The position numbers and the translations under genes were made by a program. Positions 3,221 to 63,792 of a DNA stretch of 64,000 bases are shown in pieces. Under the pieces are notes generated by a model. That model made no database searches and was not told where the DNA came from. It was given only the letters and a program-made list of their open reading frames with translations. Each line of letters starts with the position of its first letter. The stretch's first letter is position 1. Source of the DNA: Massospora cicadina (taxonomy: Eukaryota; Entomophthoromycota; Entomophthoromycetes; Entomophthorales; Entomophthoraceae); contig JAKSZP010007891.1 in NCBI GenBank assembly GCA_022478985.1, positions 310,001-374,000 of the forward strand, in the 5' to 3' direction.

Positions 3221-4379
3221 GTGTGGGAGAATTTTGGAAAATTTACCATATGGATTATATCCAATAATATCAGAATTAGGTGTGTTGGTTAGTTGGGCGT
3301 GATTGCCAGCTAATCGCCTAGTTTGATATTATTTAATGTTATAAAAATAATTGTTTTAGGTTTGGCAGATTCCTAGTTCAGTACCAACTCCAACATCATG
3401 GGTGATTGTATGAATTTCTGGTGGAAAGCCGGTGTATACATATCAACCATCTGATGACGATTTTGCTGACTAGAATTTGAGTTCAGCGGAATCTTATCCC
3501 TGCACCAACTGCCATAAAAAATGATTGTGGGATTTTCCGGCAGAATTTGAAGTATTTATTCAATTGTTTAATTATGATTTCACTGCCTAATTTAAAGCAC
3601 TGGTGACTTATGCCAAGGATGCTCAAGTTATATTTATTTTATAAATTATATATGATCAACTGGCAACTCATGCCAAGGATAGGTCAAATTAATCTAATCT
3701 TTGGTGAATCAGATGAGCGTAATTGGGAGGGAATCACTACCAAAATGACCAATTATTTATTGAAGTGCCAGCTTAGATGGCTGAGGAGTTTCATAGACGC
3801 AGTAGCCTATAGTATAAATAGTCACTTTTTCCTCCAAATAAAGATTTCTCTATCACTCTTTTTTAATTGTTAGTAGAGTCAGCTAGGTTAAGATAAATAG
3901 GTACTGGAGATCCCTAAAGTTGGCTCAAGGTGGCACGCCTGAAGTGGCCTATGCTGCCAGCTCTTATACCTCAGCCCTTGAGGAACAGGTGGGAACCTGG
4001 CCAACCGGCCACAATTGAAAATATGCCAACTGTCTGTCAGCACTGTGGTGTGCAGCGCGGGAGTACCTTGGACATCCAAGATGGGGGCAGGACTCTCTGG
4101 GGCATGCCCAGATGGGTTGGTAAAGGTCTGGGTGGTGGGGCAGCGTGGGAGTGCCTTGTCTGAACAGGAAGGGGCAGGACTCGCTGGGGCACAATACAGA
4201 CCATGGGGCTAAGGTGAAGTCATTAGTCTGCTGCATTGGTGGGTTGGACGCAGACTCATAGGGGGTTGGTACACCTATGAAGGCGAAACATCAAAGGATC
4301 AACCTGTCTTCATACTGGTTGTCCTGGCACATTAGCAGAGCCCACAATCAATTTTGTGACAGTGTTTCCGCTCTGTATT
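3221..4379 (+). repeat. Direct repeat copy 2 (LTR-like) with TATA box and polyadenylation-like signal
   Basis: Second copy of the repeat. It carries TATAAATA at 3,813-3,820 and AATAAAG at 3,837-3,843, spaced as in the U3-R of an LTR read on the plus strand. It is longer than copy 1 mainly because a ~90-bp GC-richer module is tandemly duplicated (about 4,052-4,105 and 4,139-4,192; present once in copy 1 at about 2,829-2,880). The sequence between the two repeats (3,067-3,220) has no recognisable primer-binding or coding content. Confidence 0.75.
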
Positions 4380-6070: not shown

Positions 6071-8371
6071 TGGTTTGGATACAGACCCTTGCCCACAAAA
6101 AGCTTAGTTCACACTTTTAAGAATTCACTGTTGTGTGGGGCATGGTAAGCTTTGATAAAAGCACATACCAAGTTATTTTTCCTGGGTTAAAATTTTGCCA
6201 ATGATTACTGATTTGAGAAACTTTGAGCATGCTAATCAGATGGTCTCCTTTCTAATTTCACCTATTTTGGATACTCCAAACCATATAAGTTCCCCTGCTG
6301 TCCACCCCCGATTTTATCCTTTTTTTTGTTTTTTAGTATTAGATGGTCCCAACCCCCGATTTTATCCTTCCTGGTTTGATATACTCACTGTGCTGTCTCA
6401 AAAAAAAGAAGAAGATAAAGAAGAGATTTATATCCCTCTAAACCATTAAGAAAGGTGGAGATCTGAGTAAATTAAAGGAAGCCACTATAGCTTCATATCA
6501 TATCTCACTAGTAGCTCAAATTGAAGCAGATATTGAGAAAAATTAAGTATATGGGGAATTTCAGAGGTACAGCCTATATCTGATCCGTCAAGTACCAATG
6601 CAAATCCTTTATCAGATGTTTGGCAGCGGATATGGCCTAGCAGTTCTTAACTAAATCAAAATGGAACTGGATGCTCCTGTATTGAGCAACCAGTAACACT
6701 CGTTTAGTCACAAACCAAAATGAAATGAACTATACTATACTAACTTCATATTGTTGTTCATGTTGTAGATAGGCAGTGAAAATTGTATTATATGTCCTTA
6801 TGTTACTTAAGCAACTGGAAACTATATGGCCAGAAGTTGGTTCAAAGTATAGCTCTTCAAGTTGCTACATGGTCCCCATTATGAGCGCTTCTTTCATCTT
6901 TATAGCAAATCTTCCTAATCAGAGATTCTATGGTTTAAGCCACATGAACACAATATGTGGCCAGCTTCTCGTCTACACCAGAGTTTCTATATCCAATAGT
7001 CCTAGATTCAGCTGGTGGTATCACCTGTCCTTGAGTACAGACTAAGAACAGAACATGCTGGAGTTTACCACAAAGGCATACTCTGCAAAATTACTATGTT
7101 TTAAATCTGATAAAGGAAAGATGGTGGTTGCATAGGTAGAGTACTCCGCTTCAAATGCGTTTCCTGTCCTTTCTAATATGCCACAGATCTTGAAGCCTTA
7201 AAATCTGTGTTTGATGTGTAAATTGCCAATAATCTTCCAAAACACTTAAATTTGACCTAAACTTCCGGTTGATAGTTATTCTCATCAATAAAAAATTGCC
7301 CGTTGTACCCATACACGGCTCATTATGATCAATTTGCAAGGTATTGATTGACTACATGATGAAGGGATCACAATTAATTAACCTCCCATATCTCATATCC
7401 TGTGGAAATTTTAAGTAACTGAATAGAACATTGCAACCCTGTGTGGATGACAATCACCAGAATAATGTTGTTGCAATTTGAGGTTTTGATCAGCCATAGA
7501 ATATTGACTTTGGCCATAATCCCCTAATGACTATAGATCTCACCGCTACTCTGGTACTAATTATTGTTGTAGTATATTCTTCTAACCCTTTTAAGCCTAA
7601 ATCCCAGCATTTAATATTTCAGTATCTACTTTTCCATAAAATCTGCATACAGCAGAATGATTCACATTGATCCGCCGTCATATATTTTGCTAACTTTTCT
7701 AGGGTAAACGCAAGCATTTACTAAATTACAAATATGATCTGAATTTCTGGTGGATTAATTTGTATCAACTAATCAACTGGATAGCCAGTTCTTGAAAACC
7801 AGTTCTGTTCACAACAGTCATATTTACAAAAACGATTCTACAGGATCAGTTCAGAATAACTCTATCAAAAATTTACAAAATTGATCTCATCATATCTGTC
7901 CAAAATATCCCAGTCAATTGGAACCGTTAATCTACTACTAATGTTGAACAGATAATTGTCTAAAAACTAATGAGGCTGGACAGACCACATACAAAAAATT
8001 CCTGACCTTGGACAGTTGAACGCCATGTTACAGAGTGCTTAATCCACAGGCTATTAATTGACATGGAGGAAGAAAATCAAGAAGATTCAGGAGCTGAAAG
8101 GAAAACTGACTTTATATAGGCCAGGGTAAAAATTGGCTGGCCTTACACTGAAATAGGGAAGAAACGCAGAAACGCACACTATGACATTGCTAAGTTATGA
8201 AGGGCCATGGAATACCCTTTATGTCAGATCCCTTACGCTGGCAGTACACCCCAAGATTACATTACAATTAAAAGATTATTTAATAAAGGCATATTTATCT
8301 TGTGAGCTTTATCTTGTTTTTTAGTATATTGTCCTCATACAGTTTATCCTATTTTTAGTGCCGTTTTATCC
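6071..8371 (+). pseudogene. Chromovirus G: probable gag and protease remnant
   Basis: Plus-strand remnants upstream of a recognisable RT. A helical-looking stretch near 6,449-6,540 (KKGGDLSKLKEATIASYHIS) resembles a gag coil, but no knuckle or protease motif could be read with confidence. An open frame at 6,195-6,449 is kept open despite a 30-bp insertion plus target duplication (see 6,304-6,369). The assignment rests on position and weak composition. Much of 6,600-8,370 shows nothing I can name. Confidence 0.35.
6304..6369 (-). mobile_element. Ultra-short retro-insert (30 bp) with 18-bp target-site duplication
   Basis: ACCCCCGATTTTATCCTT occurs at 6,304-6,321 and again, identically, at 6,352-6,369. 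Between them lie 30 bp that read on the minus strand as TGGGACCATCTAATACTA followed by an A-rich tail. The same tail is found at 34,526-34,553 and 39,925-39,975, and more distantly at about 19,579-19,607. A perfect long TSD plus a terminal A tract is the signature of target-primed reverse transcription, here giving an extremely truncated copy. Confidence 0.9.
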
Positions 8372-15899: not shown

Positions 15900-17215
15900 C
15901 CAAACCTTGCTTTGCTGACTAGATAGACGCCTGCTGCCCCCTTGTGGGGTGGCGGTGCACTCCCTCCTGGCGTTTATTGGCCGCCACCAAAAGCCCCCAG
16001 GTTAGCCCAATTAGCCCCAAAATTATACTTGTTGCTACGTCCCTACATGAGACCTAGCATGGCACCTCACACGCACCCAGGCGGTGCTCATAAGTCCCTA
16101 GTTCTCCCTTGGTCCAACCAGCATTTTGGCCTTTGGGTTAAGTATTGGAACCTCTTTCCCTACACAAGCGCGGCCATCAGCAAATAGCAAAAATGGTGTA
16201 CAGACCCACCAGTTTTATTGATTTCTGTCCCTTTAAGAGATACTTTGATCTTGGCTTCTCATGTGAAGTCCGCGCTATGGCAGCAGCTTTGCTGCCTTTA
16301 ATTTATAAAAAGACACCAATACCAACCATATGAACTCACTTACCAGATGATGTCACACTGGTTGTCCAGTTCGCCAGCTTGCCTTCCCACCTCTCCCCAA
16401 ATGCCTCCGCCATGAGCTCACGGAGGGATTGGATGTCTATGGTGCCAACTATATGCTGCTTTTTTTGGTGCAAAATGGCGCCAATCGTCTCACACTTGGC
16501 TTTATGCATTTGCAATGATATTCCCCTTCTATTGTGACACCCGCCTCAAAATACCCCCACACCATGATCAGATCCACGCCTGATCATCCCTTCTGGGCAC
16601 ATTTTTAAAATGGCCACACCAGTTGCCCTGTGCACTTTACGCTCAATCATTCAAAGTGCAAGTGCCGTGCTTTTCGCCAAAGCATCCTCTGCTGATCCTC
16701 CAACTGGCATTACCCTTGCTTCTGATTCTACTAAATTTTTTGCTTGGGGATCTGTCCAACGTCCCCCACATAAGACCACTGTGGGCGCTGCTACCACTGC
16801 TCCGCCAGCCAATTTTTTGACTGCCCAACCCACTTATGAGCAGAAGACAGCTCATGTGCCAGTGAAATTGCAATGGTCCACTGTGAGCAGCCAATCAGAA
16901 GCTGTCACCCTACCAAATCCTATTGCTACCCCAGCGCTGGTTGTTTCCAATCCTTTTGAGGCTCTAAAATGGACTGATGACGCAAATCCCCCTACAAAAT
17001 TAATCCTGACTTTGAATGGTAAGAAATCTTTTACCCTACCCCAAATCTACTCCCTGCTGCTGTTTCCCTCCTCAAAGATGGTTTCCCAACTTACAAAACA
17101 ACTAATCAGAAAGCTTTCAAAGCAGATGCTGCCATACCAATTTCCTCCTAAGTCAAGCCCTCCACACGGTGATTGAGTCACTTTGCAAGGGCTTTCCTAA
17201 ACCTAACTTCCTTAT
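15900..17215 (+). pseudogene. Zinc-knuckle (ZK) gag-like ORF, copy 1
   Basis: First of three related plus-strand copies (others at 17,520 and 20,365). It opens with a tryptophan/glycine/proline-rich start near 15,940 (WGGGALPPGVYWPPP), continues with LWVKYWNLFPYTSAAIS (16,132-16,180; copies 2 and 3 have DKYGHLFPY and LWVKYRKLFPY), then FIDFCPFKRYFDLGFSCE. A knuckle is visible after a frameshift near 16,621-16,660 as CPVHFTLNHSKCKC, a C-x2-[H]-x4-H-x4-C pattern with the second ligand changed. The longest uninterrupted piece, 16,610-17,176, is 188 codons and probably reads partly out of frame. It resembles nucleic-acid-binding Gag/ORF1 of a retrotransposon; the exact family is unknown to me. 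No RT or endonuclease follows. Confidence 0.55.
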
Positions 17216-17519
17216 AGATTTCCAAAGTATGCCAAATTTGATACTGAAATATTAGCTTTTGCAGCTGGCTGCGCATGCATCAGTATGGAGAGATTTCTGC
17301 TCTACAACCTCAACAACCCCCAAACCTGCCAAACCATTAAATCCTTTACCTGTGTGCCTGACCAAATTACATTTTCTGAATTTCAACTCCTAATATGTTG
17401 AGGCAATGCACACCACTGGTCAAATTGGTGAGGAGAAATCCACCTTTTTCACCCTTTTTTCTTTCTGCTTGATCTCACTTTAAGTGAATTTTATAAGAAA
17501 AAGCATTTACTCTACCACC

Positions 17520-19346
17520 GCCGTCTGGCCACGCCCATTTCCCAAATAATGTCTGTGGATCCGCCGCCTGATGCTCCAATGTGGGGTAGCGGTGCTCCAC
17601 CACCTAGCATTTTATGACCTTCAGAGAATGCATTCACATGGGGTCAAATAGCCTGCCATCTTCTTCAGGCTGTTTTGTTCCCCCATGGGACTTACCACTC
17701 AACATGGCGCAAATCCTCCGTCAGCCCCCATTTTCTCGCCCTCCCTCATTCCAAAATTCAATTTTGCCTACTAGATAAATATGGGCATTTGTTCCCATAT
17801 ACCAACAAGGCAATTATTATAGTGGCCACCACTGCATATGTACCAGCTGGCTTTATCAATTTCAGCCAATTTAAGAGCTATTATGGCATAGGCTTCCAGA
17901 TAGAGGAGGACGCTGAAGCAGCGGCTTCAACTCCACTTATTTACAGAAACACTCCCATACCTAGTACCTGAACTCGTCTTCCTTCAAAACTTCATTTATG
18001 TGTTCTTTGCATCCCTCCCATCTCACCTCCCACCCCAGATATTATATTATCAATTGATGGTGGGCTTCTAGCTTATTGGACAAAGTCCAACCCTTTTTTC
18101 ACCATGCCTTCTGGTGCAGAGCGCATTGCTGCACCTTGTGCCACTGCCACCATAATCCCACACCACCCAGCCATAGCCCAACAAATCTCCCTATGCTTGT
18201 ATTGCAGTGGCGCCTAAGCATTCCTTTTGGGCTTGGGTGGATAATGGTCACCAAATTTGTCCCCTCTGTTTTGGACTTGATCATTCCAAAAAATCCTTCC
18301 CCCAAGCCACTTCCTCTGGTGTGGCTTCTGATCCATATTCAGCGGATTCCAGATGGGGCGTTTTGTTGCCCCCTCCCATTCAACATTCTCGTTCAATGGG
18401 ACAGAGTGGGAGTTTGGCCTCCACCAAATCATATGACCATTTTAACCCACTCAATTTCACCCATGCCAATCAGAGTCAGGCCTGGACCATAATTCACGCT
18501 AAAGCAGCCCATTTGACTCCTACCCATCCAAATTCTTCATCCACTATTCTTGTGAACCAAAAAATAGGGCTATTGGCCGAAAATGACGAATCAGGTAACA
18601 TTGTCACAAATGAGGAATCTATTGAACCTTTTGGCCATCTTGATTACGTTTAGGCAAAATTTCAATTCATATTTTGGAAAAAGCATCCCCCAAGCGATTC
18701 ACTTCAAAATCCAATGCCATCCCCTTCCAAAGTGACCATCAGATCACCTTAGCAGCAGTGGTCTCACTCCATTACCTAGACTTCCGCAAAGCAGTGACCC
18801 AATCAGTGGCTTAATTCATGAAGGGCTTAACATAATCAACTACCCCTCTGGTTTCCCTGAAGCAGCAGGGAGCGAAACTTCCAAATTTTATGATGATGCT
18901 GAAGACGCTATCATAAATGTTCTTAAACTAGTAGATTTTGACCCATCTACTAAAAGCAACTGAAAAACTATAATCACTTTTCCTAACTCCCCAAGGCCTG
19001 AATTAAAGCTGAACATCATGTTGCGGAATTAGTTGAAGCTGTCTTCCAAGCTGATTTTGAGGAAGGTAACCATTTTTTCACCCACATCCAATCCCACCAT
19101 GCTGATGCCTCAATTCTATGGCTCTCCACTTTTTCCATTACTACGACTTTGTGATTCTGTCATGAGCAACAAGACTGTGGAAGAGCTTCCCAACCCCCCT
19201 CACCCTATGCCATGATGGTTTGCGGTATCCTGCTCCCCACCTGGTTGGAGGTTTTGTTTTGGTTTTGTTCCGTTCATTTGTTTGTTCATTTTTTGCTCAT
19301 TGAGTATTGCTAATGTCCTTCCCTGGTTGATATATCAAATAATTTT
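17520..19346 (+). pseudogene. Zinc-knuckle (ZK) gag-like ORF, copy 2
   Basis: The start near 17,560 again reads PMWGSGAPPP. The frame at 17,675-17,971 carries DKYGHLFPYTNKAI and the conserved AGFINFSQFKSYYGIGFQ. The frame at 18,207-18,653 (148 codons) has FWAWVDNGHQICPLCFGLD followed by HSKKSF, a CCHC knuckle with the last Cys changed to Phe. A further block near 18,890-18,990 is acidic. After the coding part, a T/G-rich 3' segment (19,215-19,346) ending CTGGTTGATATATCAAATAA matches the end of copy 3. Likely an RNA-binding gag-like protein. Function beyond that is unknown. Confidence 0.6.
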
Positions 19347-19607
19347 TACACTTAAACCTCCACCTCTTTCTTCTCCTGCCACACGTTGCTAACGCGCCCA
19401 CCCCTTTTATCCACCTTTTTTCCGCACCTGAAGCTGTTGCACCAGATAAAATTCCCGCCCCCTCTTCCCCTTTTAGAATGGATGTTTAGTCTAATGCTGC
19501 GATCCATTCTAGAAAATTTTTCATCTATCCATACAATTGTTTAGCACCCCTTAAATAAAGATGCATGGAGGACCCCCGTTGGGTTGGGTACCAATACTAA
19601 AAAAATA
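19347..19607 (+). mobile_element. 3' tail of ZK copy 2, probable source of the ultra-short inserts
   Basis: Continues past the end shared with copy 3. It contains a perfect 10-bp stem (TAGAATGGAT at 19,474-19,483 with ATCCATTCTA at 19,502-19,511), then GATGCATGGAGGACCCCCGT and TTGGGTTGGGTACC, and ends in an A tract at about 19,601-19,607. The last ~45 bp align with the 51-bp insert at 39,925-39,975 and with the reverse complement of about 45,895-45,950. No flanking duplication was found for this copy, so its 5' boundary is unknown. Confidence 0.65.
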
Positions 19608-20346
19608 ATTCCTCTTGAGTTGACCACCATTAAAGTATTTTTTCCATTGTACACATAATCAATTATATACTCAAAATTATAAATTACTGTTCAGAGGCTA
19701 TGAAAATGTAATTAGCATTCCCTAAACATAAATTAAATAAAAGCCATATATCCACCAAACTAAGTAGCTTTCATAAAGTTTCTTCTGGTGTTTACATTAC
19801 AGTACCAGAGTCAAAATATTATACACCAAGGAGTTGCAACTATACAATGTTCCAAAGATGTGACATTTTTGATATAAAAGTCTGACAAAGAACAAGATTG
19901 AGGTTTCAGTAAATGACTCACCTGTGCAGTACCGTGCTTAAGACCCATGTATTACATGTGTTGCTAACTACTGGGTGTAGGGAACAATTTTAATCAACTA
20001 GAGCTTATACATGAATAACATAATAGGAAGATATGACATTGGATTTTATTTTTATTGTGTTTACATCAATTGTTTAAGTCCTAATCAGTTAGCTTGAGAG
20101 GAATTTCAATAATAACTCCTTAGTTTTAAGGGTTCAACTATTCCCTCACTGCCTAACTACTATAGACACAGGTCAGATATTGCTTCATGGATTCATAGTT
20201 ATTCATTAACAAAATAATAGACAATTTTACCTCTCTATTTTACTAAGAACAGCATAAAAATTTACTTCAACAATATGAGACCTTTCAAGTTATATAAGAT
20301 CTGGTTATTAAATCACTCTCAATCACTTGAGCAGCTTAGACAGTAC
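19608..20346. other. Unassigned AT-rich sequence between ZK copies
   Basis: No open frame, repeat partner or RNA-like fold was recognised. Its right end is the target site of ZK copy 3. Confidence 0.4.
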
Positions 20347-22302
20347 ATTACATGATAGCTTCAAACTTTTTTCTTCTCAGAGTACCTTTCAAGCAAATAT
20401 TTAATTAAGTAAAAAAGTAAAGTAAGTCTTCTAGCCTATGACTACCTTCCCCATTCACTTCCTGATGACCTCAGATTCTCTGCAGCTGCTCCTATGTGGG
20501 GCAGCGGCAAAACCCCACACAGCGTTTTCCATTTGGTGAGAAAACGTGCTCAGACTGGTTCATCCAGCCCCACCAAATCATTGGGTCAGTTCATTCCACC
20601 CAAGGATCTTTCCATCCACCTTGCACGTGCCCAGGCAATTCCTCTCAGCCCACTTGTTCTCCAATGCTCCCAGCTGCATTTCAGCCTTTGGGTCAAATAT
20701 AGGAAACTGTTCCCATATGCTGTGAAAGAAATTATTGACCTGGTCTAGGCAGTGATGCTGCCAGCCGGGTTTATAGATTTACACCCCTATGAAGGGCATT
20801 TTGATCTAGGTTTAACTTGTGAAGCTAATGCGCCACTGTTGCCACCTATCCTCTGTGTTTCCAAGGCACCTCTATACTAACAACGCGCACACAGCTCCCC
20901 ATGGACAACATTATGGTGGTTTAATTCGCAGGGTTTCCCACATACCTTCCCCTCATGTACTCCATCAGGAGTTGATGTTAGGTTTGGCCGCATATGGCTC
21001 CAAACCCATCTTAGTTTGTTGTCCCCAATGGGGCCACTCGCCTCACTGGGCCTTGGGCATTCGCCACAATTAGCCCAAATATAAACAAAATTTCTTTGTC
21101 AATACCCCCATGCCATCAATCCCTCTGCCCCCAACCACCCATTCTGGGCCTGCATCAAGGGTGGGTGGACCATCTGCCCATCCTGCTTTGAGTTAGATAA
21201 CTCAAAGCATAAATTTCCTTCTCTCAATGCCTCTTCCAGACCTGCGTTGTCTCCATCTGGCCCCCAATTGACCATACACCCTACTTCCTTTCCAGTATGA
21301 GGTACAATCTTTCCCCCATCCCCAAAGCCTTCTGCCACTGCAGTACCTGCAACTGACAATCAGCCTCCTCCTCATCCCAGTGCCACCTGCGCTTCAACCA
21401 ATCAGGAGACAGCTTGGACAACATTTTGATCCCACTCTATTCTTTAATCAACAGACAAAGCCATCAATTCACCAACATTAATTTTCTGTATAACTTGAAC
21501 CCATGTTCCTCATTGGTTGAAACTGATGAGGTGGTAAATTTTATTGAAGAAACGGATGTCCACATCAAAGAATCTATCCAAGTACAGCATTACGTTCAGT
21601 TCCCTCAGCATTTTTATGGCCTCATCTGGACGCCCATGTGTTCTGCACTATCCACCAGCTCGCCAAAGCAGCAGTTGATCACCCAGATAATACTGACATC
21701 CGCATTATTGCTGCCACATCAGTGGTAATACTACCCAAGGGTATCCTTCCTCCCATATTTGTCCTGACCCTGTCCCACAGGGCAAACATGACATCCTTAG
21801 CCTCTACAAATAAACTACTGCCACCTCCAGGAAAGTGGCTGTCACTTCACAGGACAAGCCAAAAGTCACCCGTGCCACTGCTGCTTTGTTATAACAGCTT
21901 CCTTCCATCCGCCTTCATGTGGAACAATGCTTATCCCAGTAGCAAAGTGCAATTTTTGATGCAGGTATTTACCTGGCCATCTGATCATCAGCAATCTCAA
22001 CCCACATTTCACTGATCACCCCAAACCATTGCTCTCCGCCTTAACCTGCACTCTTTCCTATGAGGAGGACTCCAATGCTGAGGATGAGCCCCCCAATCCC
22101 CCTTCCCCTTCTGATATGGCGGGATAAGCAGCTCGCCGGTGTTCCACCTGGTCAGTTGTTTTATCAAATTATTATGTGTCTTACCACTCGTTTAGGGCGT
22201 TTGGTTTGTGTTTTCAGTTCACTTGTTTGGTGTTTCTGTTTTGGTAATGTCTGTACCCTGGTCAGCTTACCTTGAATAATTTAAATTACATGATAGCTTC
22301 AA
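20347..22302 (+). mobile_element. ZK element copy 3 with perfect 18-bp target-site duplication
   Basis: ATTACATGATAGCTTCAA occurs at 20,347-20,364 and 22,285-22,302, bounding a 1,920-bp insert. The insert holds the third ZK ORF: PMWGSGKTPHSVF near 20,488, LWVKYRKLFPYAVKEII, AGFIDLHPYEGHFDLG, then CPSCFELDNSKHKF at about 21,152-21,200 (a knuckle with two ligands changed) and an acidic block near 21,510-21,600. It ends at the T/G-rich segment that corresponds to 19,215-19,346 of copy 2, without the 260-bp tail found there. The long TSD indicates target-primed insertion. No RT or endonuclease domain is inside, so this copy is non-autonomous. Confidence 0.8.
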
Positions 22303-33854: not shown

Positions 33855-34691
33855 GTAAGATGGAACTCATAGAGGTCTCAGGTGGGAATATGTCGTTTTG
33901 TGGTAAATCCTTTACTGAGCTCATCGTTGGTAGAGAGGGAATTTGGTTCAATTTGATGTTCATCTGGTGATGACGCCACCAAAACACACTTATAATGATA
34001 AAGTATAAGAATAAGGAACAGCTGAAAAGTAATTGCAGATACAGAAGAAATGAACAAATTTTGCACTGATGCTGAACAGGATGACACTTCATGGGTGAGA
34101 GGATGCGCTTAATATTAAAGGGCAGCTCCTGTGTCTCAAATCTAAGGCTTGTCGATTCTAATGTACATATAAAGCTGGCTGGTACTGTGCACTGGAAACC
34201 CTGCACATAACTCAAATGACCCAGAACGGAAGGTAATGTGAAACATGTGATATTCTTGATTTTCAGTGATGAAGAAGAAAGTGAAAGAGTAGCGTGAGTG
34301 GAAGAAGGTAAAGATGTAATGACTTATTGTTAACTGAAAAATGCGCTTGCATATTCTAAGAATATTTTTTTGCTCTACCTGATTTAATAATATTGTACTA
34401 TTATAAATTAAATTCCAGTGCTTTCTATAAGGAGAAGGAGTTAAGGTTTGAAAGTACATGGGGATTCCTAACAACTACATAGGCGAAAGCCTCGCTAAAG
34501 TTCAGAGAGAAGAGAAGAGAGCTTTTTTTTTAGTACTAGATGGTCCCAACCCAAAGAGAAGAGAGCTTTGATTTGATGGAAGTTTTATTTTTCATAGTGA
34601 GAGAAGATTGAAAGGAGTCTAGATATACAAACTAAGTGTACTGGTGTTCTTTATATTACCTGAATCTAAATGCTCAGCTAGCCTATACTCT
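33855..34691 (-). pseudogene. Chromovirus D: gag/protease side (minus strand)
   Basis: Minus-strand frames at 33,826-34,215 and 34,142-34,474 (the first overlapping the solo LTR end) fill the place between the RT and the 5' LTR. No knuckle or DSG/DTG motif could be read. Assignment is by position within D only. It carries the 28-bp insert at 34,526. Confidence 0.4.
34510..34569 (-). mobile_element. Ultra-short retro-insert (28 bp) with 16-bp target-site duplication
   Basis: AAGAGAAGAGAGCTTT is present identically at 34,510-34,525 and 34,554-34,569. The 28 bp between read on the minus strand TGGGTTGGGACCATCTAGTA followed by CT and an A tract. Identical in its last 20 non-A bases to the insert at 39,925-39,975. 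Perfect TSD indicates a recent insertion by comparison with the decayed host element D. Confidence 0.92.
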
Positions 34692-39620: not shown

Positions 39621-40260
39621 CTGCATCATTTTTATTTAGCATGCTTTGAACCTTATCAGGTCCATTTTTGTATTGATGAGTCACCATCTTCTCAAACTTT
39701 TCCTTGGTGCAATCAGCCCGTAAGGCCATGATGGGCATGTGGGAGAGTCCATTGGCGTTTAGATGCTAAACGTTGGTCTATTGTTAATTCCAAAACCAAA
39801 TGCATTTAATTTTAAGGACCAACGGGACAACCGTCCTTCAGGCTCCTTAAATTTTGTATCCAGGCAGTGAGGCATGGTCTGTTACCACAGTGAAATGAAC
39901 GCCATGGATATAGACCTGAAATTGTAACATCGATGAATCCCCCCTTGGGTTGGGACCATCTAGTACTAAAAAAAAGATATAGACCTGAAATTGCTTGCAA
40001 GCATAAATAACAGCTAGTTTTTCTTTTTGGTAACAGTATAATTCTTCTTGTATATGCCCAGTGTCCTGCTGCAATAAGAAATGGGGTGTTCTCCCCCTCA
40101 TTATTGAGCTGAGATAACACCTCCACTATGGCAATGAGGGATGCACCCATCTGAAGAATCAACAGTTTATCAAAGATTGGATATATTAGTATTAACGCTT
40201 GGGTTAGGCAAAGCCATAAATTATCAAAGGCGAGCTGTCAGTTTACTGTCCATTTGAATG
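39621..40260 (-). pseudogene. Gypsy B2: RNase H, carrying an in-frame retro-insert
   Basis: Frame 39,847-40,101 reads YCYQKEKLAVIYACKQFQVY, then insert-derived residues, then HGVHFTVVTDHASL. The last part and the K-LAVIYA core match RNase H in A copy 2 (ECLAVIYAYKKF...TDHDSL). The 51-bp insert plus 18-bp duplication adds exactly 23 codons, so the frame stays open. The catalytic Asp of TDAS is outside the open part. Confidence 0.8.
39907..39993 (+). mobile_element. Short retro-insert (51 bp) with 18-bp target-site duplication
   Basis: GATATAGACCTGAAATTG occurs at 39,907-39,924 and 39,976-39,993. The 51-bp insert begins TAACATCGATGAATCCCCCC, continues TTGGGTTGGGACCATCTAG and ends with eight A. 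It aligns over its whole length with the tail at about 19,562-19,607, linking the short inserts to ZK copy 2. Plus orientation, antisense to the B2 polyprotein. Confidence 0.93.
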
Positions 40261-44713: not shown

Positions 44714-46194
44714 ATTTTAACAGAAATAGAGAACCTTTGAATATCTTCCAACTTCCAACTACTTTTATTAGACGCCTCAAAATTGACTGCGCTTTTCCAA
44801 AGATTAATAAGTCATAATGTGATATATATTTTTTTCTTTGTCAAGCACCAGGAATAATAATATTTATAACTCATTATATGTCTCACATGCATGGTGAAGA
44901 GCAATCTGGGCGTCAAAGCTATTCAATACATTGCTCCATTAAACCTGAATCTCAAGTAAAATAGTTTAGCAAAATCTGCAACAAATTCAACCTTAGGGAA
45001 GAGAAAATAAAAGATTGATTTTTAATTTCCATTTATTTCTCAGTCATTTCTAGCGCAATAAGTCCTTTAAATTTGTGGTTATAATACTGACTTCACTTAA
45101 ATATTGCATAACCTCATTTAGACTTTTAGCGTGAAGGGAATTAATATGGTTGTCAGTTTAGAATTCTTGGGTGAAATCTCCATCTTATCTCTGACAAGGC
45201 GTTAGTTTTGTATACATTTCTATTTCTGACCATCTTGGGTAAGTTGATTGGATCAACAAGGAATAAACATCCATTTTTTAAGGCCATGAAGGCTGCGATT
45301 TTCAATCAAACTTCTTAGTTATCTGAATGCAGTACATATAAAAAGGACTTTTTCCACAGGAGGAGCATAAGTTGAGGTACCATGTGTAGGGCGATTGAGG
45401 CCGCTGATATAACGAGAAAGGGCGAGGAAGATGGAAGAGAAGGAAATTACTAGTTGAGAGCACCAGATTAGCAGTAGGATCAAAAATAACTGTATTTGAG
45501 ACAATGGTAAGCATCATAAGCAAGTAGCGACCAACCAGCGTCTCATTGTTTTCAGTATCATATGTTTAAATAGTATTATATTAGGTATCAATACCGTTTG
45601 TTTGAAGAGTGAACAATGAAAAAACATAGTAGTGTTATTGCAGTTATTTGTAAACTCCTTGCAGGTTGGTTGAACAAGCTAGAAATTTGCAGCGTTCAAT
45701 AATAAATCTTTATTCAAACTGCTTAATACTCACAGTTGAAAGAAAAAATTGAACTTTTATCTCTTAGTTTCTTGCCTTTATGCAGAAAATAGGTTATTTT
45801 GGTATTAGATAATCCTGTCTTAGTCAGTATTAGATCAAATAACTTAAGCTAAAGCTTAATTAATAGCAATAAGACTGCATTGGTATACAAAAGTATTTTT
45901 AACACTAGTGGTGCCCAACCCAAAGGGGGAGCCTCTATGCATCTAAACAGCATTATCCTTTTCTAATAAAAAAACATGGCAATGTAATATATAAATCATA
46001 AAGTGACCAATGTGGCTGTTTACCTTTTCAATAAGCTGATAAAATATGGACTATAAGAATTTCTGATCCTGTGGGTTGGCCTTTTCAGCATTGTTAAAAC
46101 ACTTTAGATCAGCACAGAAAAAAGGATATATATCATTAATTATAAAAGTAGTTGGTGTTCAGGGTTGCTAAAAATCCCTTCAGTGAGCACCGAA
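44714..46194 (-). pseudogene. Gypsy C: gag and leader (minus strand)
   Basis: The last part of C's interior, between B2 and C's 5' LTR. Small minus-strand frames at 45,302-45,523 are of uncertain meaning. No knuckle was found. It contains a ZK-tail-like segment at about 45,895-45,950. Confidence 0.4.
45895..45950 (-). mobile_element. ZK-tail fragment, minus orientation, diverged
   Basis: The reverse complement reads GATGCATAGAGG then CTCCCCCTTTGGGTTGGGCA and CCACTAGTGTTAAAAA, matching the tail at about 19,562-19,607. It lacks a convincing target-site duplication, so it is older than the three short inserts or was moved otherwise. Confidence 0.7.
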
Positions 46195-57668: not shown

Positions 57669-58369
57669 AGTGATATAGTTTCCATTTTGTTTCTTTATGA
57701 TTGGTCAACCTCAAAGTTGCAAAAGTGGGTTGACCTTAAGCAATTAAAAAGATTAATACTTTGCCATATGCTTAATTTTGAACCCCCTCTCAGCTGGTAG
57801 CAGGTATCACTCCAGTAGTCTAAACCTTGCAATAAAATTCTATAACTAACTCACAACTTTTACTTTATTATAGTATAACTAATAAAAATTCTAGATGTTT
57901 AGCCTGTTAGTCAAAAACTGGGTGTAGTTGCGCACACCTGTAACCACAAGCTAAGGTGGTGTAAAAATGCTGTAACAGGTTCAAAAACCTGTTTTGGCTA
58001 GGAAAAACATAATTTTCTCCATCCCCTCTTATCTTTAATTGATTAAATAATGATATGGAGTTAAAAAGGAAGATTTAATGATTGTCATACAGGGTGGTTC
58101 CTGCTACTGCTGAATCTTTTTAAGAAAAAAGAAGCCTGGCAGTTAAAACTGCTTCCACCCTAGTGCAGGTTTTGAGTTCAAAACTTGTTCCTACTAGAAA
58201 AATTCTCAGTGTATAATTGTCCCAAGGTCAACCCACCTCAAAATTTTTATTTTTAACTAATAAAAATGATACTCTAAGAATCCAAAGATCTATATATTCA
58301 TAATAAATCTCTAAAGTTTACAGATAATTTTTTTCTGATTGAAATTTTCTGCAAAAAATGTTATATTAC
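57669..58369 (+). repeat. Dimeric tRNA-like repeat unit
   Basis: Two tRNA-like modules in tandem. Module 1 (about 57,918-58,003) has a perfect 5-bp D-arm-like stem GGTGT/ACACC (57,921-57,938) and a T-arm-like AACAGGTT-CAAA-AACCTGTT (57,974-57,993). Module 2 (about 58,132-58,200) has CTGGCAGTTAAAACTG and GAGTTCAAAAC (58,174-58,184). Each is followed by a similar CTAG-AAAAA stretch. The inverted motif GTGGGTTGACCTT / AAGGTCAACCCAC lies at 57,727 and 58,226. It is probably a dimeric SINE; no target duplication was found. Confidence 0.5.
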
Positions 58370-60560: not shown

Positions 60561-61460
60561 AAGAAGCTTTGACAGTGTTTCGTCCATGAAAATGTGGCAT
60601 CCTTTTTTAATAACTCAAACAATGGACCTCAAATACAACTAAAGTTAGGTAAGAAGCAGCGATAGTAGCCAACCATCCATAAAAATACTTGTATATCCCG
60701 TTTACTGCTTGGTGTAGTCATTTTCCAGAGGGCCTCCACCTTACTGGTTGAGGCCTCAGCCCTGTTGCATCAACTACAAACCCAAGGTACTCTAGCTGAT
60801 CCTTGTAAAGTGGCATTTCCAGGGTTTGATTTTGATGTTGGCCTCAGCCAACCGGCGGAATACCTCTTCCAAATGGCTAAGGTGCTCAGAAAATGTGCGG
60901 GAGAAAACGTTGATGTTGTCAAGGTATACAAGAATGCATGACAGCTTCAAGTTGTTAAGGATAGTGTCCATTGCCGTTGGAAAGTAGCTGGGGCATTACA
61001 CAGCCCTTGAGGCATACGTGTCAGCTGAAAAAGCCCTTTTGACGTGATAATGGCGCATTTTCCTTGTTCCGCCGCAGGTAACTCAATCTGCCAATAGCCA
61101 GATACTAAATCCATTGCAGAAAAGTAACGAGCTCCCCCCAACTGGTCCAATGCATCATCAATTCATGGCAAAGGGTATGAGTCCTTTTTTGTAATTCTGT
61201 TGAGCTTGTGGTAGTCTATTACCTGGTTAGTACCATCCTTCTTTTTGACAATTAGAGCAGGGGAAGCCCATGGGCTCTTCGATGGTTCAAGCTTTCCTTG
61301 CTCCAACAATTTATTGATTTCTGCTGTGAAAACTTCTTCAGCTGCATTAGATCAGCGGATTGGCTGAGATCTAATGAGGGATGATCCCCAGTGTCCACTT
61401 GATGGATCACTCCTCAGGCGCACCCCAAATCATGATCATCACCAGCAAAGATCTCTTTAT
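60561..61460 (-). pseudogene. Gypsy A copy 2: reverse transcriptase (minus strand), YLDN
   Basis: The frame at 60,947-61,150 reads LGGARYFSAMDLVSGYWQIE, then AIITSKGLFQ and MPQGLCNAPATFQR. After a frameshift the catalytic loop at 60,915-60,926 is YLDN, with the second Asp lost, in VYLDNINVFSRTF. Upstream are [11 protein letters not shown] and KKKDGTN. Otherwise the RT is near full length, so the element died or was inactivated relatively recently compared with others here. Confidence 0.9.
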
Positions 61461-62335
61461 ATTTTTGGAATAAGGCTTCCGCTTGATCCTTCTGATCTTC
61501 TGTTAACCCCATTAAATTTTCACGCGGTACAGCTGCCATTACGCCAGGCTGTGTTTTGACGGCAGACTGAATTCATCCAGTGAACCAAACTTATGAATCC
61601 TAAGGACCTCCTCAACTGGAATGAAATGGAGGAATGCAACTACTTGGTGTCAGCATATTTGCACTGGTTTACCCTGAAGATTCGCTACCAAGACCTTGAT
61701 TTCCCCATGCCCCAGAAGTATAATGCCAGGGGCCACGTGGGGCTTGAGCCATGATTGTTGATAGGGCAAATGTCCTCCCCATATAGCCCAGCAGGCACTT
61801 CCACCTCTACCTCAGTGCTTATGATTGCTTGGTGTCCGGAGGGAGTATATATATGGCCAGCATCCCTAAGCGTTAGCCCTTGATATTCATAAATTTGGGT
61901 AGGAAGGGCCCAGGTCTTGCCTTTTAATCGATGATAGCAAACTGAAACCACCCCATCACCATATGCAAGATTAACGTAACTCATATGTACAGGATCCTTT
62001 GGCATTATGCCGGAAGTGAAGTATATTGGGATCCGCTGCCCCAGAATTTCAAATGTCTCTTCTGTCATATCAATAACAGCTCCAAAGTGACGCATAAAAG
62101 TGGTACCAAATAACAGGTCATAATGATTGTTTGGTAACACTATAGCTAGGGCTACAATGACAATTGACCCAAACTGCAAGTGTAGCACGCTGTATGCCCC
62201 TTCATAGACTGTGCTTTCTGAGCCTGCGGTCTCATACACCATACGATGCTCTACATCAGGCTTTAATGCTAACTTTGACACCAACTTTGAGGACACTATG
62301 TTGATTGAAACACCTGTATCAATTATTGCGCGAAC
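61461..62335 (-). pseudogene. Gypsy A copy 2: protease and linker (minus strand)
   Basis: The frame at 61,685-62,296 is 203 codons, the longest uninterrupted Gypsy frame in the window. The active-site loop IIDTGVSINIVSS lies just upstream; D-T-G is encoded at 62,312-62,320. LPNNHYDLLFGTTFMRHFGA follows, the second conserved part of retropepsins (LLG/ILG-type strand). One in-frame stop near 62,336 separates it from gag. Confidence 0.88.
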
Positions 62336-63792
62336 TTAGGTTTTTGCTACAACAGTGTCACAGTAAGTAAGATCAGAGTAAAATGCATCTGATTGTTTTA
62401 AAACATGGACATTTAACTGATCTCTTTTTCCAAGGAAGCTCATAATACCCTTCCCCACTTTAAAGTATTCTTCAACAATAGCGTCCACAGGGAGGGCTGC
62501 GTTTACCCCTTTTAAAAGGAGCGCATCAGATAATGGATCTGGTTCATTGGTAGGAAGGTAATCAAACAATTGGCATGCATACAGTTTTGGGTGCTCCTGG
62601 GAGCCTGCTTCTGCCATGTCCATGAATTGCATTTGTGTCTGCACATTTACCCCTCCAACTAGCTTCTGGTATAGAAAATCGTCATCATACCAGGAAACAT
62701 CCTCTTGCTGTGCAGGAATAGGTTCAGATGGGACGTTTTGAGTCAGAATAGCGGAGTTAGAGAGTCTCATTTCTACTCCGCTCTGACTTTTCCCTGATTA
62801 TACTGCTCCCATGGTAGGTACTGAACCCGAAGATTATGACAACTCCTAGCCAGGTGCCCAGGGCGACCACACGAAAAGCAATTAACCCTATGAGACCTTC
62901 ATCCTTGAGAGTTGTAAGATGGGCCACCCAAAAAGGTAGACTGGTATTGAATATTGTAACCAGGCCCATTCTGGTAGGTGAACTGCTGTTGGCAACTTGG
63001 TTGGAAACGAGGCTTGTGATGATAATAAGGCTAGGGAATGCCAACTGGGCGCTAAACAGGGAGGGATGATTCCTCCAAATAATCAAGGTTAACAGCGGAG
63101 GAGATAGGGTTCCACTCTATACTGGGTGGAGAGAAGGTAGCAGATAACTGAAGTAGAATTTGAACAAGTGTAAGCAAAGGTACGTCAACCTCTAAATATG
63201 GATCCAAAGCATTAAAAAGCTCTCAGTATGGTTTCACACAAAGGTCAACAATATGCTTATGTCACATTCAGTTAAAACTCCTGCCATTTAACACATGGGC
63301 TTCTGCTGAGAATAGATCAGCAAGTGCAGTGAGGGTCTCGTTATGTTGAAACCCAATGGTAAAAAAACTCAGCCTTCCATTGCGCCATTTTTGAAGTTCC
63401 TCCAAACAACCTCAGCACAGTATCCTTCACCTTTTTTTATAGGTAACAGAACTGTTGGGAAGATAGAAAGTACTTGGTCAGCGCTTCCAACATCCAAAGT
63501 AGACATTAGTAATTTGGCTTTAGGCCGATCTGAAGCTCCTTATACTGCAAACTCAAATCATTTTAAGAATCCATGGATGTTTCCATCGCAGTCAAACGGA
63601 GGCGGCTTGTCAATACAACATTCTTGCAGAAACTCCTTTTCCATTTAATCACAGCGTCTAGAGCAAGCTTGAGATCTGCATATTCAACAGTTGCAGTGTA
63701 TTGAGATGATTTCTAAGTAAAGCAAGCCGGATATAACATTACTAGCAACTGAGGAACGCTTATCAGTCTATGTGATTGATCATTGGGCCCCC
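62336..63792 (-). pseudogene. Gypsy A copy 2: gag with intact zinc knuckle (minus strand)
   Basis: The frame at 62,336-62,770 is the gag-protease link. A complete CCHC knuckle, CFSCGRPGHLARSC, lies at 62,839-62,880 with all four ligands. Further right, gag continues in broken frames (FQHNETLTALADL near 63,290-63,355). The leader and LTR follow at 63,793. It would bind and package genomic RNA. Confidence 0.85.

Follow-up and report, generated by a model that had tools for sequence, protein, structure and literature searches.

The cause of 5' loss from LINE copies is an old question. Truncated LINE members are described in part of PMC3747384 as having various truncation points and lengths of 100 to 1,000 bp, and stringent-type LINEs are reported to need a 3' stem-loop for retrotransposition (passages of PMC5135761 and PMC3747384); from the same passages, both 5'-truncated LINE copies and LINE 3' stem-loops are already known. 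Two other kinds of retroposed sequence are relevant here. MINE chimeras of the WEIRD-MGL LINE of Magnaporthe grisea consist of LINE 3' ends joined to other RNA and are accompanied by short direct repeats (PMC2104539, in part), and the tailless retropseudogenes of mammals are small retroposed pieces of RNA attributed to L1-type machinery (PMC3747384, in part). The genome of Massospora cicadina carries a substantial share of L1 LINEs (6.3%), unlike the genomes of its relatives (PMC11105155, in part). Here, we describe an L1-like LINE of this genome whose insertions are dominated by pieces of 13 to 48 nt with two preferred ends, a spectrum that a limited search of the open-licence literature did not return.

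We analyzed a 64,000-nucleotide stretch of this genome (the window). A preliminary description had reported a perfect 18-bp duplication around a 30-bp A-tailed insert, and both are exact: the 18-mers at 6304-6321 and 6352-6369 are identical and spaced by 30 bp, and the insert, read on the minus strand, terminates in AAAAAACAAAAAA. The core of this insert was found twice more in the window, both times A-tailed and between perfect direct repeats.

6304..6321, minus strand: target-site duplication of copy 1 (18 bp; the 3' copy in element orientation)
6322..6351, minus strand: copy 1, a 30-bp insert made of a 17-nt LINE 3' end (TGGGACCATCTAATACT) and then an A-rich tail
6352..6369, minus strand: target-site duplication of copy 1 (18 bp; the 5' copy in element orientation)
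6195..6449, plus strand: 84-codon open frame across copy 1, judged to be due to chance
34510..34525, minus strand: target-site duplication of copy 2 (16 bp)
34526..34553, minus strand: copy 2, a 28-bp insert made of a LINE 3' end and then an A tail
34554..34569, minus strand: target-site duplication of copy 2 (16 bp)
39907..39924, plus strand: target-site duplication of copy 3 (18 bp)
39925..39975, plus strand: copy 3, a 51-bp insert with first bases TAACATCGATG (AATAAA-edge class) and an A8 tail
39976..39993, plus strand: target-site duplication of copy 3 (18 bp)
39812..40237, minus strand: decayed Ty3-type RNase H region that holds copy 3
45895..45944, minus strand: 3' end of an old-subfamily LINE, classed as short from its start position, near AGATGCAT
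19558..19604, plus strand: related older LINE 3' end with AAATAAA directly upstream

A shorter word, TCTARTACTAAAA, has its only window sites in copies 1, 2, and 3. When the window was scanned for an A tail combined with a duplication, three inserts were returned, all with the core; the same scan of 12 dinucleotide shuffles gave two matches in total, with best scores of 11 and 12. Peptides translated from the core yielded no candidate in the protein database, the core had no matches in viral and bacterial/archaeal contig collections, and it was not found in the literature searched. Pfam searches of ten window frames returned just two sub-threshold matches, both on one frame.

The preliminary description also drew attention to the plus-strand frame at 6195-6449, which insertion and duplication together leave open. 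This frame does run uninterrupted through copy 1, with TTG as its first codon, and it has no Pfam match at an E value of ≤1. Among 71 duplication-bounded copies from the genome, the length of insert plus duplication modulo 3 was 0, 1, and 2 in 22, 25, and 24 cases, so the frame is kept no more often than by chance. The open frame is a coincidence with a 1-in-3 chance, and a meaning for it is rejected.

The source of the core was sought in the 1,469,884,898-base assembly (16,968 contigs). Four of the first 27 copies extend far upstream of the core and are 95 to 98% identical to one another; three do so across all of the 1.5 kb retrieved, and the fourth does so for about 500 nt. In locus L102, for which we retrieved 5 kb upstream of the core, an endonuclease domain (PF03372, 40.6 bits against a cut-off of 24.5) and a reverse transcriptase domain (PF00078, 99.3 bits) are preceded by a frame without a Pfam match in which a zinc-knuckle-like motif was seen by eye. 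The C-terminal frame at another locus, L002, has a zf-RVT match slightly under the curated cut-off. Among solved structures, the best matches of the reverse transcriptase frame were 8c8j_A and human L1 ORF2p (chains at E values of about 1e-34). Because long copies with endonuclease and reverse transcriptase end in the same core, the core is, by its sequence, the 3' end of a LINE, and it is L1-like by best matches. Two overlapping frames that precede the endonuclease (L102:134-2658) have long peptide stretches in common, and the 5' part of the LINE seems to contain a direct repeat. The proteins of this young LINE had no match at an E value of ≤1e-3 in the window, including its C-rich stretch at 16 to 22 kb.

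We counted words of the LINE 3' end across the genome on both strands, with the following results.

TCTAGTACTAAAA: 37,178 (reversed control, 169)
CATCTAGTACTAAAA: 34,069 (reversed control, 6)
ACCATCTAGTACTAAAA, the 13-nt core plus AAAA: 30,632 (reversed control, 0)
TGGGACCATCTARTACT, the exact 17-mer core: 17,990 (reversed control, 0)
GGGT plus the 17-mer core: 10,567
ACATCGATGAATCCCC: 6,720
TTCAATAAACATCGATGAATCCCC: 2,013
A 24-mer about 240 nt from the LINE end: 2,781

Counts drop as the words extend in the 5' direction and then level off at 2,013, with 2,781 still present at about -240 nt; the steps are approximate, as the words are not equally long and do not tolerate LINE variants to the same extent, and the TCAGG variant (12 of 100 sampled copies) escapes the GGGT word. 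Reversed-pattern controls were 0 for all words of at least 16 bases.

To within this approximation, the counts agree with the lengths of individual copies: most are shorter than 21 nt, a second drop falls at the AATAAA edge, and none occurs between about 50 and 240 nt. Our main sample comprised 100 listed copies of the 17,990 with the exact 17-nt core; it came from the first 14 contigs and required an exact core, and is thus neither random nor age neutral. LINE length was determined for each copy by alignment to a long copy, with 300 nt compared. At most 48 nt of LINE was present in 81 copies, none ended at 49 to 280 nt, and the remaining 19 had at least about 280 nt, with 16 reaching the 300-nt limit of the comparison. 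By start position, 52 copies had 17 to 33 nt (51 of them ≤29 nt), 29 belonged to the AATAAA-edge class, and 19 were long. Since 19 of 100 17-mer copies are long and the words farther upstream number 2,013 to 2,781 against 30,632, we extrapolate that about nine insertions in ten are ≤48 nt.

These short pieces are bounded by duplications. A close duplication with a score of at least 11 was found at 71 of the 81 short copies (45 of 52 in the shortest class and 26 of 29 in the edge class) and at none of the 19 long copies, for which the search reached just 300 nt upstream. With swapped flanks, scores of at least 11 arose in 0.1% of 1976 trials, and scores of at least 13 in none. The duplications at the 71 copies are 12 to 24 bp long, mostly 15 to 18 bp, with a mode of 17. 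A tails and duplications of this kind are hallmarks of target-primed insertion, and the sites fit nicking at T-rich/A-rich positions: A at +1 in 92%, A at +2 in 86%, and T at -2 in 62% of the 71 copies, the leading As being partly ambiguous with the tail. Ten short copies lack a close duplication. Six of them have imperfect or low-complexity repeats by eye, and two (L033 and L083, of 81 short copies) have no convincing duplication. In the other two, L077 and L082, whose cores lie about 100 bases from one end of the locus, perfect 18-bp repeats farther out enclose the LINE tail plus 74 and 99 nt of other sequence, and these two copies are possible template-jump chimeras. The extra sequence is A/G rich in the 74-nt case and unrelated in the 99-nt case, and neither matches the LINE sequence fetched.

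In a second sample, of 20 copies with at least 21 nt, 4 were long, 10 were of the AATAAA-edge class, and 6 were otherwise short, with duplications at 14 of the 16 short ones. At 20 loci with the 13-nt core but not the 17-nt core, 17 had duplications (swapped flanks, 0 of 380), and the bodies were 12 to 16 nt in 13 of those 17. A core-free scan covered 264 kb, made up of the window and twenty 10-kb stretches (L009 included) that had been picked for holding the core. It returned 16 A-tailed, duplication-bounded inserts of ≤60 bp, of which 15 have the core and the sixteenth is an opposite-strand reading of a core insert; its rules were stricter, and copy 2 of the window was missed. The genome-wide search and the length measurements proposed in the preliminary description have thus borne out its expectation of many short, duplication-bounded copies, and neither a larger simple repeat nor a lack of other copies, the two outcomes it had set against its reading, was found.

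Two loci show the target before insertion, and the two kinds of empty site are independent by the sequences compared. At copy 3, the RNase H relatives P0017 and P0018 read ACKQF(Q/R)VYIH unbroken, and the window frame has 23 additional residues at QFQVYI, or 69 bp, exactly the length of the copy 3 insert plus its duplication. The two sequences score weakly against the whole database (E values of 0.09 and 0.33), but a pairwise comparison with P0017 gives a clear match (4e-11). At L022, the adjacent repeat unit, 1.29 kb away, carries an unbroken target that differs at one base close to the site. The surrounding locus (L022:1-10000) is a diverged tandem array with a spacing of about 0.5 to 1.3 kb, with the short LINE insertion in one unit and none in its neighbor.

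These results bear on the idea that the short pieces are long LINE copies that later lost their middle, or an effect of chance or simple repeats. Internal loss does occur: L029 is a long LINE copy with a junction inside the LINE, where GGTCTGCACTA is joined to GGCGTAATTC in its 3' part. However, the short inserts are directly flanked by duplications at dozens of sites, each in a different target, shuffles and swapped flanks yield almost none, the empty site of copy 3 is exact to the residue, and the reversed-pattern controls are zero for the longer words. We regard this explanation as practically negligible.

The end positions are not spread along the element; in the main sample, they form two clusters. 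The tail of the LINE has the sequence ...TTCAATAAACATCGATGAATCCCCCCTTGGGTTGGGACCATCTAGTACT-An, in which the C run varies in length, and its predicted fold is GAUG-AA-UCCC...GGGA-C-CAUC. Ends at 13 to 24 nt sit in the inner GC stem, the bulge, and the loop of this predicted hairpin. Ends of the edge class lie at about 39 to 43 nt, beside AATAAA and a few nucleotides past the predicted stem-loop. This class was selected by a CATCG-like word, and L087 (33 nt) is the sole other copy of the 100 at 30 to 48 nt. In all 29 edge copies, C(A/T)T is preceded by A; 20 of them have one templated base, and all ten edge copies of the second sample begin ACAT. The edge end is therefore at the last A of AATAAA. 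A minor third end falls at the start of the C run, at 28 to 29 nt (L017, L073, L099, L110, and L113). The very early template loss proposed in the preliminary description is supported by these data, with the refinement that the loss clusters in the predicted 3' hairpin and at AATAAA rather than being spread along the RNA.

An older subfamily allows a comparison. The word GGGTTGGGCACCACTAGTGTT occurs 96 times in the genome and once in the window. Of 20 old-subfamily copies that we read, 16 extend upstream alike, mostly as ...AAATAAAGATG..., and 4 (L133, L137, L141, and L142) start at about (A)GATGCG, the equivalent spot relative to AATAAA. Three of these four have repeats (14 bp, 17 bp with two mismatches, and 12 bp), and swapped flanks in this subfamily reached a score of 12 once in 380 trials. 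Short copies are thus a minority in the old subfamily (4 of 20) versus 16 of 20 comparable copies in the young family, and L131 and L135 of the old subfamily, with apparent lengths of 143 and 201 nt, go against a strict two-checkpoint rule. The inner stem is GUGG/CCAC in the old subfamily versus GAUG/CAUC in the young one, in a similar arrangement, and a longer outer stem is predicted. The predicted inner fold is alike in the two subfamilies with stem bases changed, and the predicted energies (-8.9 versus a shuffle mean of -6.2 with an sd of 2.5, and -16.2 versus -12.1 with an sd of 2.8) lie 1 to 1.5 sd below shuffles, for few sequences.

No duplication was recognised at the flanks of the old-subfamily 3' end at 45895-45944 in the window. 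The related end at 19558-19604 is, judged by its upstream sequence, probably not a short copy, because it retains the upstream AAATAAA as longer old copies do; an initial assignment of both ends as short copies was dropped for that reason. Near 19558-19604 ends a region (16500-22000) that is strongly C rich on the plus strand and has long frames without a Pfam match; it may be an old LINE. Other window repeats are diverged (12-1706 versus 61102-62799, 71% identical; 2055-2778 versus 3232-3949, 82% identical). One of them contains the gag-protease frame of a Ty3-type element, with 16 protein matches, all from Entomophthora muscae, the best-scoring at 49% identity. Separately, inserts of 364 bp (window 57876-58267) and 285 bp (L011 6336-6620) are flanked by 14-bp repeats and have a common 27-nt 3' end, ATTGTCCCMAGGTCARCCCACCTCAAA. 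The L011 insert has motifs that we take to be like the A and B boxes of tRNA genes, and the two inserts are probably members of an ordinary-length, tRNA-derived SINE family.

Could the AATAAA-edge copies be a SINE of their own? A separate SINE-like gene might give a 42-nt RNA that the LINE copies, the long LINE having just the tail in common with it, and edge copies do begin at one common point, as SINEs would. Against this, the LINE variants TTGGG, TCAGG, and TCGGG make up similar shares of the long and the edge copies (13 of 19 versus 22 of 29, 5 versus 6, and 1 versus 1, respectively), Rfam and tRNA scans of the window gave no match, and in the second subfamily the piece ends within LINE sequence at an equal edge. 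A SINE has an RNA gene or promoter of its own and a body distinct from the LINE, and the short pieces are LINE sequence with LINE variants. We consider a separate gene very unlikely.

A stronger competitor is a short template: the LINE RNA would already have been reduced, by cutting or trimming, to a 3' piece that starts at the AAUAAA edge and is shielded by bound LINE protein or 3'-processing factors. This piece would be copied to its end, with hairpin stops as a second, separate loss. Such an account would explain why the second end is precise to a single nucleotide and located past the hairpin, why it usually carries no further templated base, and why an equal edge recurs in the older subfamily; the larger class, ending in the hairpin at about 13 to 24 nt, is left unexplained by it. 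We view a short template as a real possibility that is, on balance, improbable.

Our preferred reading, which we consider probable, is target-primed insertion by an L1-like LINE in which reverse transcription mostly ends early, at two checkpoints. The LINE endonuclease would nick the target, and copying would start at the 3' end of the A-tailed LINE RNA. In about nine of ten cases, copying would halt at 13 to 48 nt, and the stub would nonetheless be integrated as a full insertion, flanked by a duplication that is mostly 15 to 18 bp long. The first exit would lie inside the predicted 3' stem-loop, at about 13 to 24 nt, where the hairpin may stop the enzyme. The second would lie at the 3' edge of the AAUAAA hexamer, at about 39 to 43 nt, where the enzyme may meet either a second barrier (a bound 3'-processing factor or the LINE protein's own footprint) or the end of its template; once past this point, copies would seldom stop soon after.

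A more specific form of early exit, to which we are inclined only tentatively and which falls a little short of probable, is an abortive mode that resembles abortive initiation of transcription. While it still holds on to the 3' stem-loop and the poly(A)-signal region of its RNA, the enzyme would have to escape two checkpoints, the second set by AAUAAA or its binder, before it could copy processively, and most attempts would fail. Several points count against our preferred reading of early exit. On the predicted fold, the enzyme passes the lower stem before halting, unlike the classical stop at the base of a stem; the predicted stability of the hairpin is not unusual compared with shuffles; and the one-nucleotide-sharp edge end beyond the hairpin fits a short template at least as well as a barrier.

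The 5' loss in this LINE falls mainly at defined RNA features and is recorded in very many natural insertions, for which enzyme drop-off, RNA structure, bound proteins, and short templates make separable predictions. The insertions are clean and add roughly 30 to 70 bp in all. Mutations of this kind would probably escape repeat annotation, and they keep or break reading frames randomly. If the abortive mode is true, the dominant product of the element would be a tag of 13 to 48 nt with a 15- to 18-bp duplication, present in tens of thousands of copies in this one genome.

Among known systems, the tailless retropseudogenes differ in that they originate from truncated tRNA-related RNAs and have no poly(A), whereas the pieces described here are LINE 3' ends with A tails. 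MINE chimeras may have counterparts in L077 and L082; however, MINEs are long and dependent on template switching, and most of the pieces here are plain LINE tails. As in the stringent LINEs (R2, ZfL2, Tad1, and the algal and maize L1 elements), an internally bulged stem-loop is predicted close to the 3' end of this element, but here the predicted stem-loop region coincides with stopping positions. The element also resembles 5'-truncated LINEs of the L1 clade in mammals and plants, with which it has in common an A tail, long duplications, a common 3' end, 5' loss, and an L1-type endonuclease and reverse transcriptase; unlike those, 81 of 100 sampled copies here are ≤48 nt and stop at two preferred ends.
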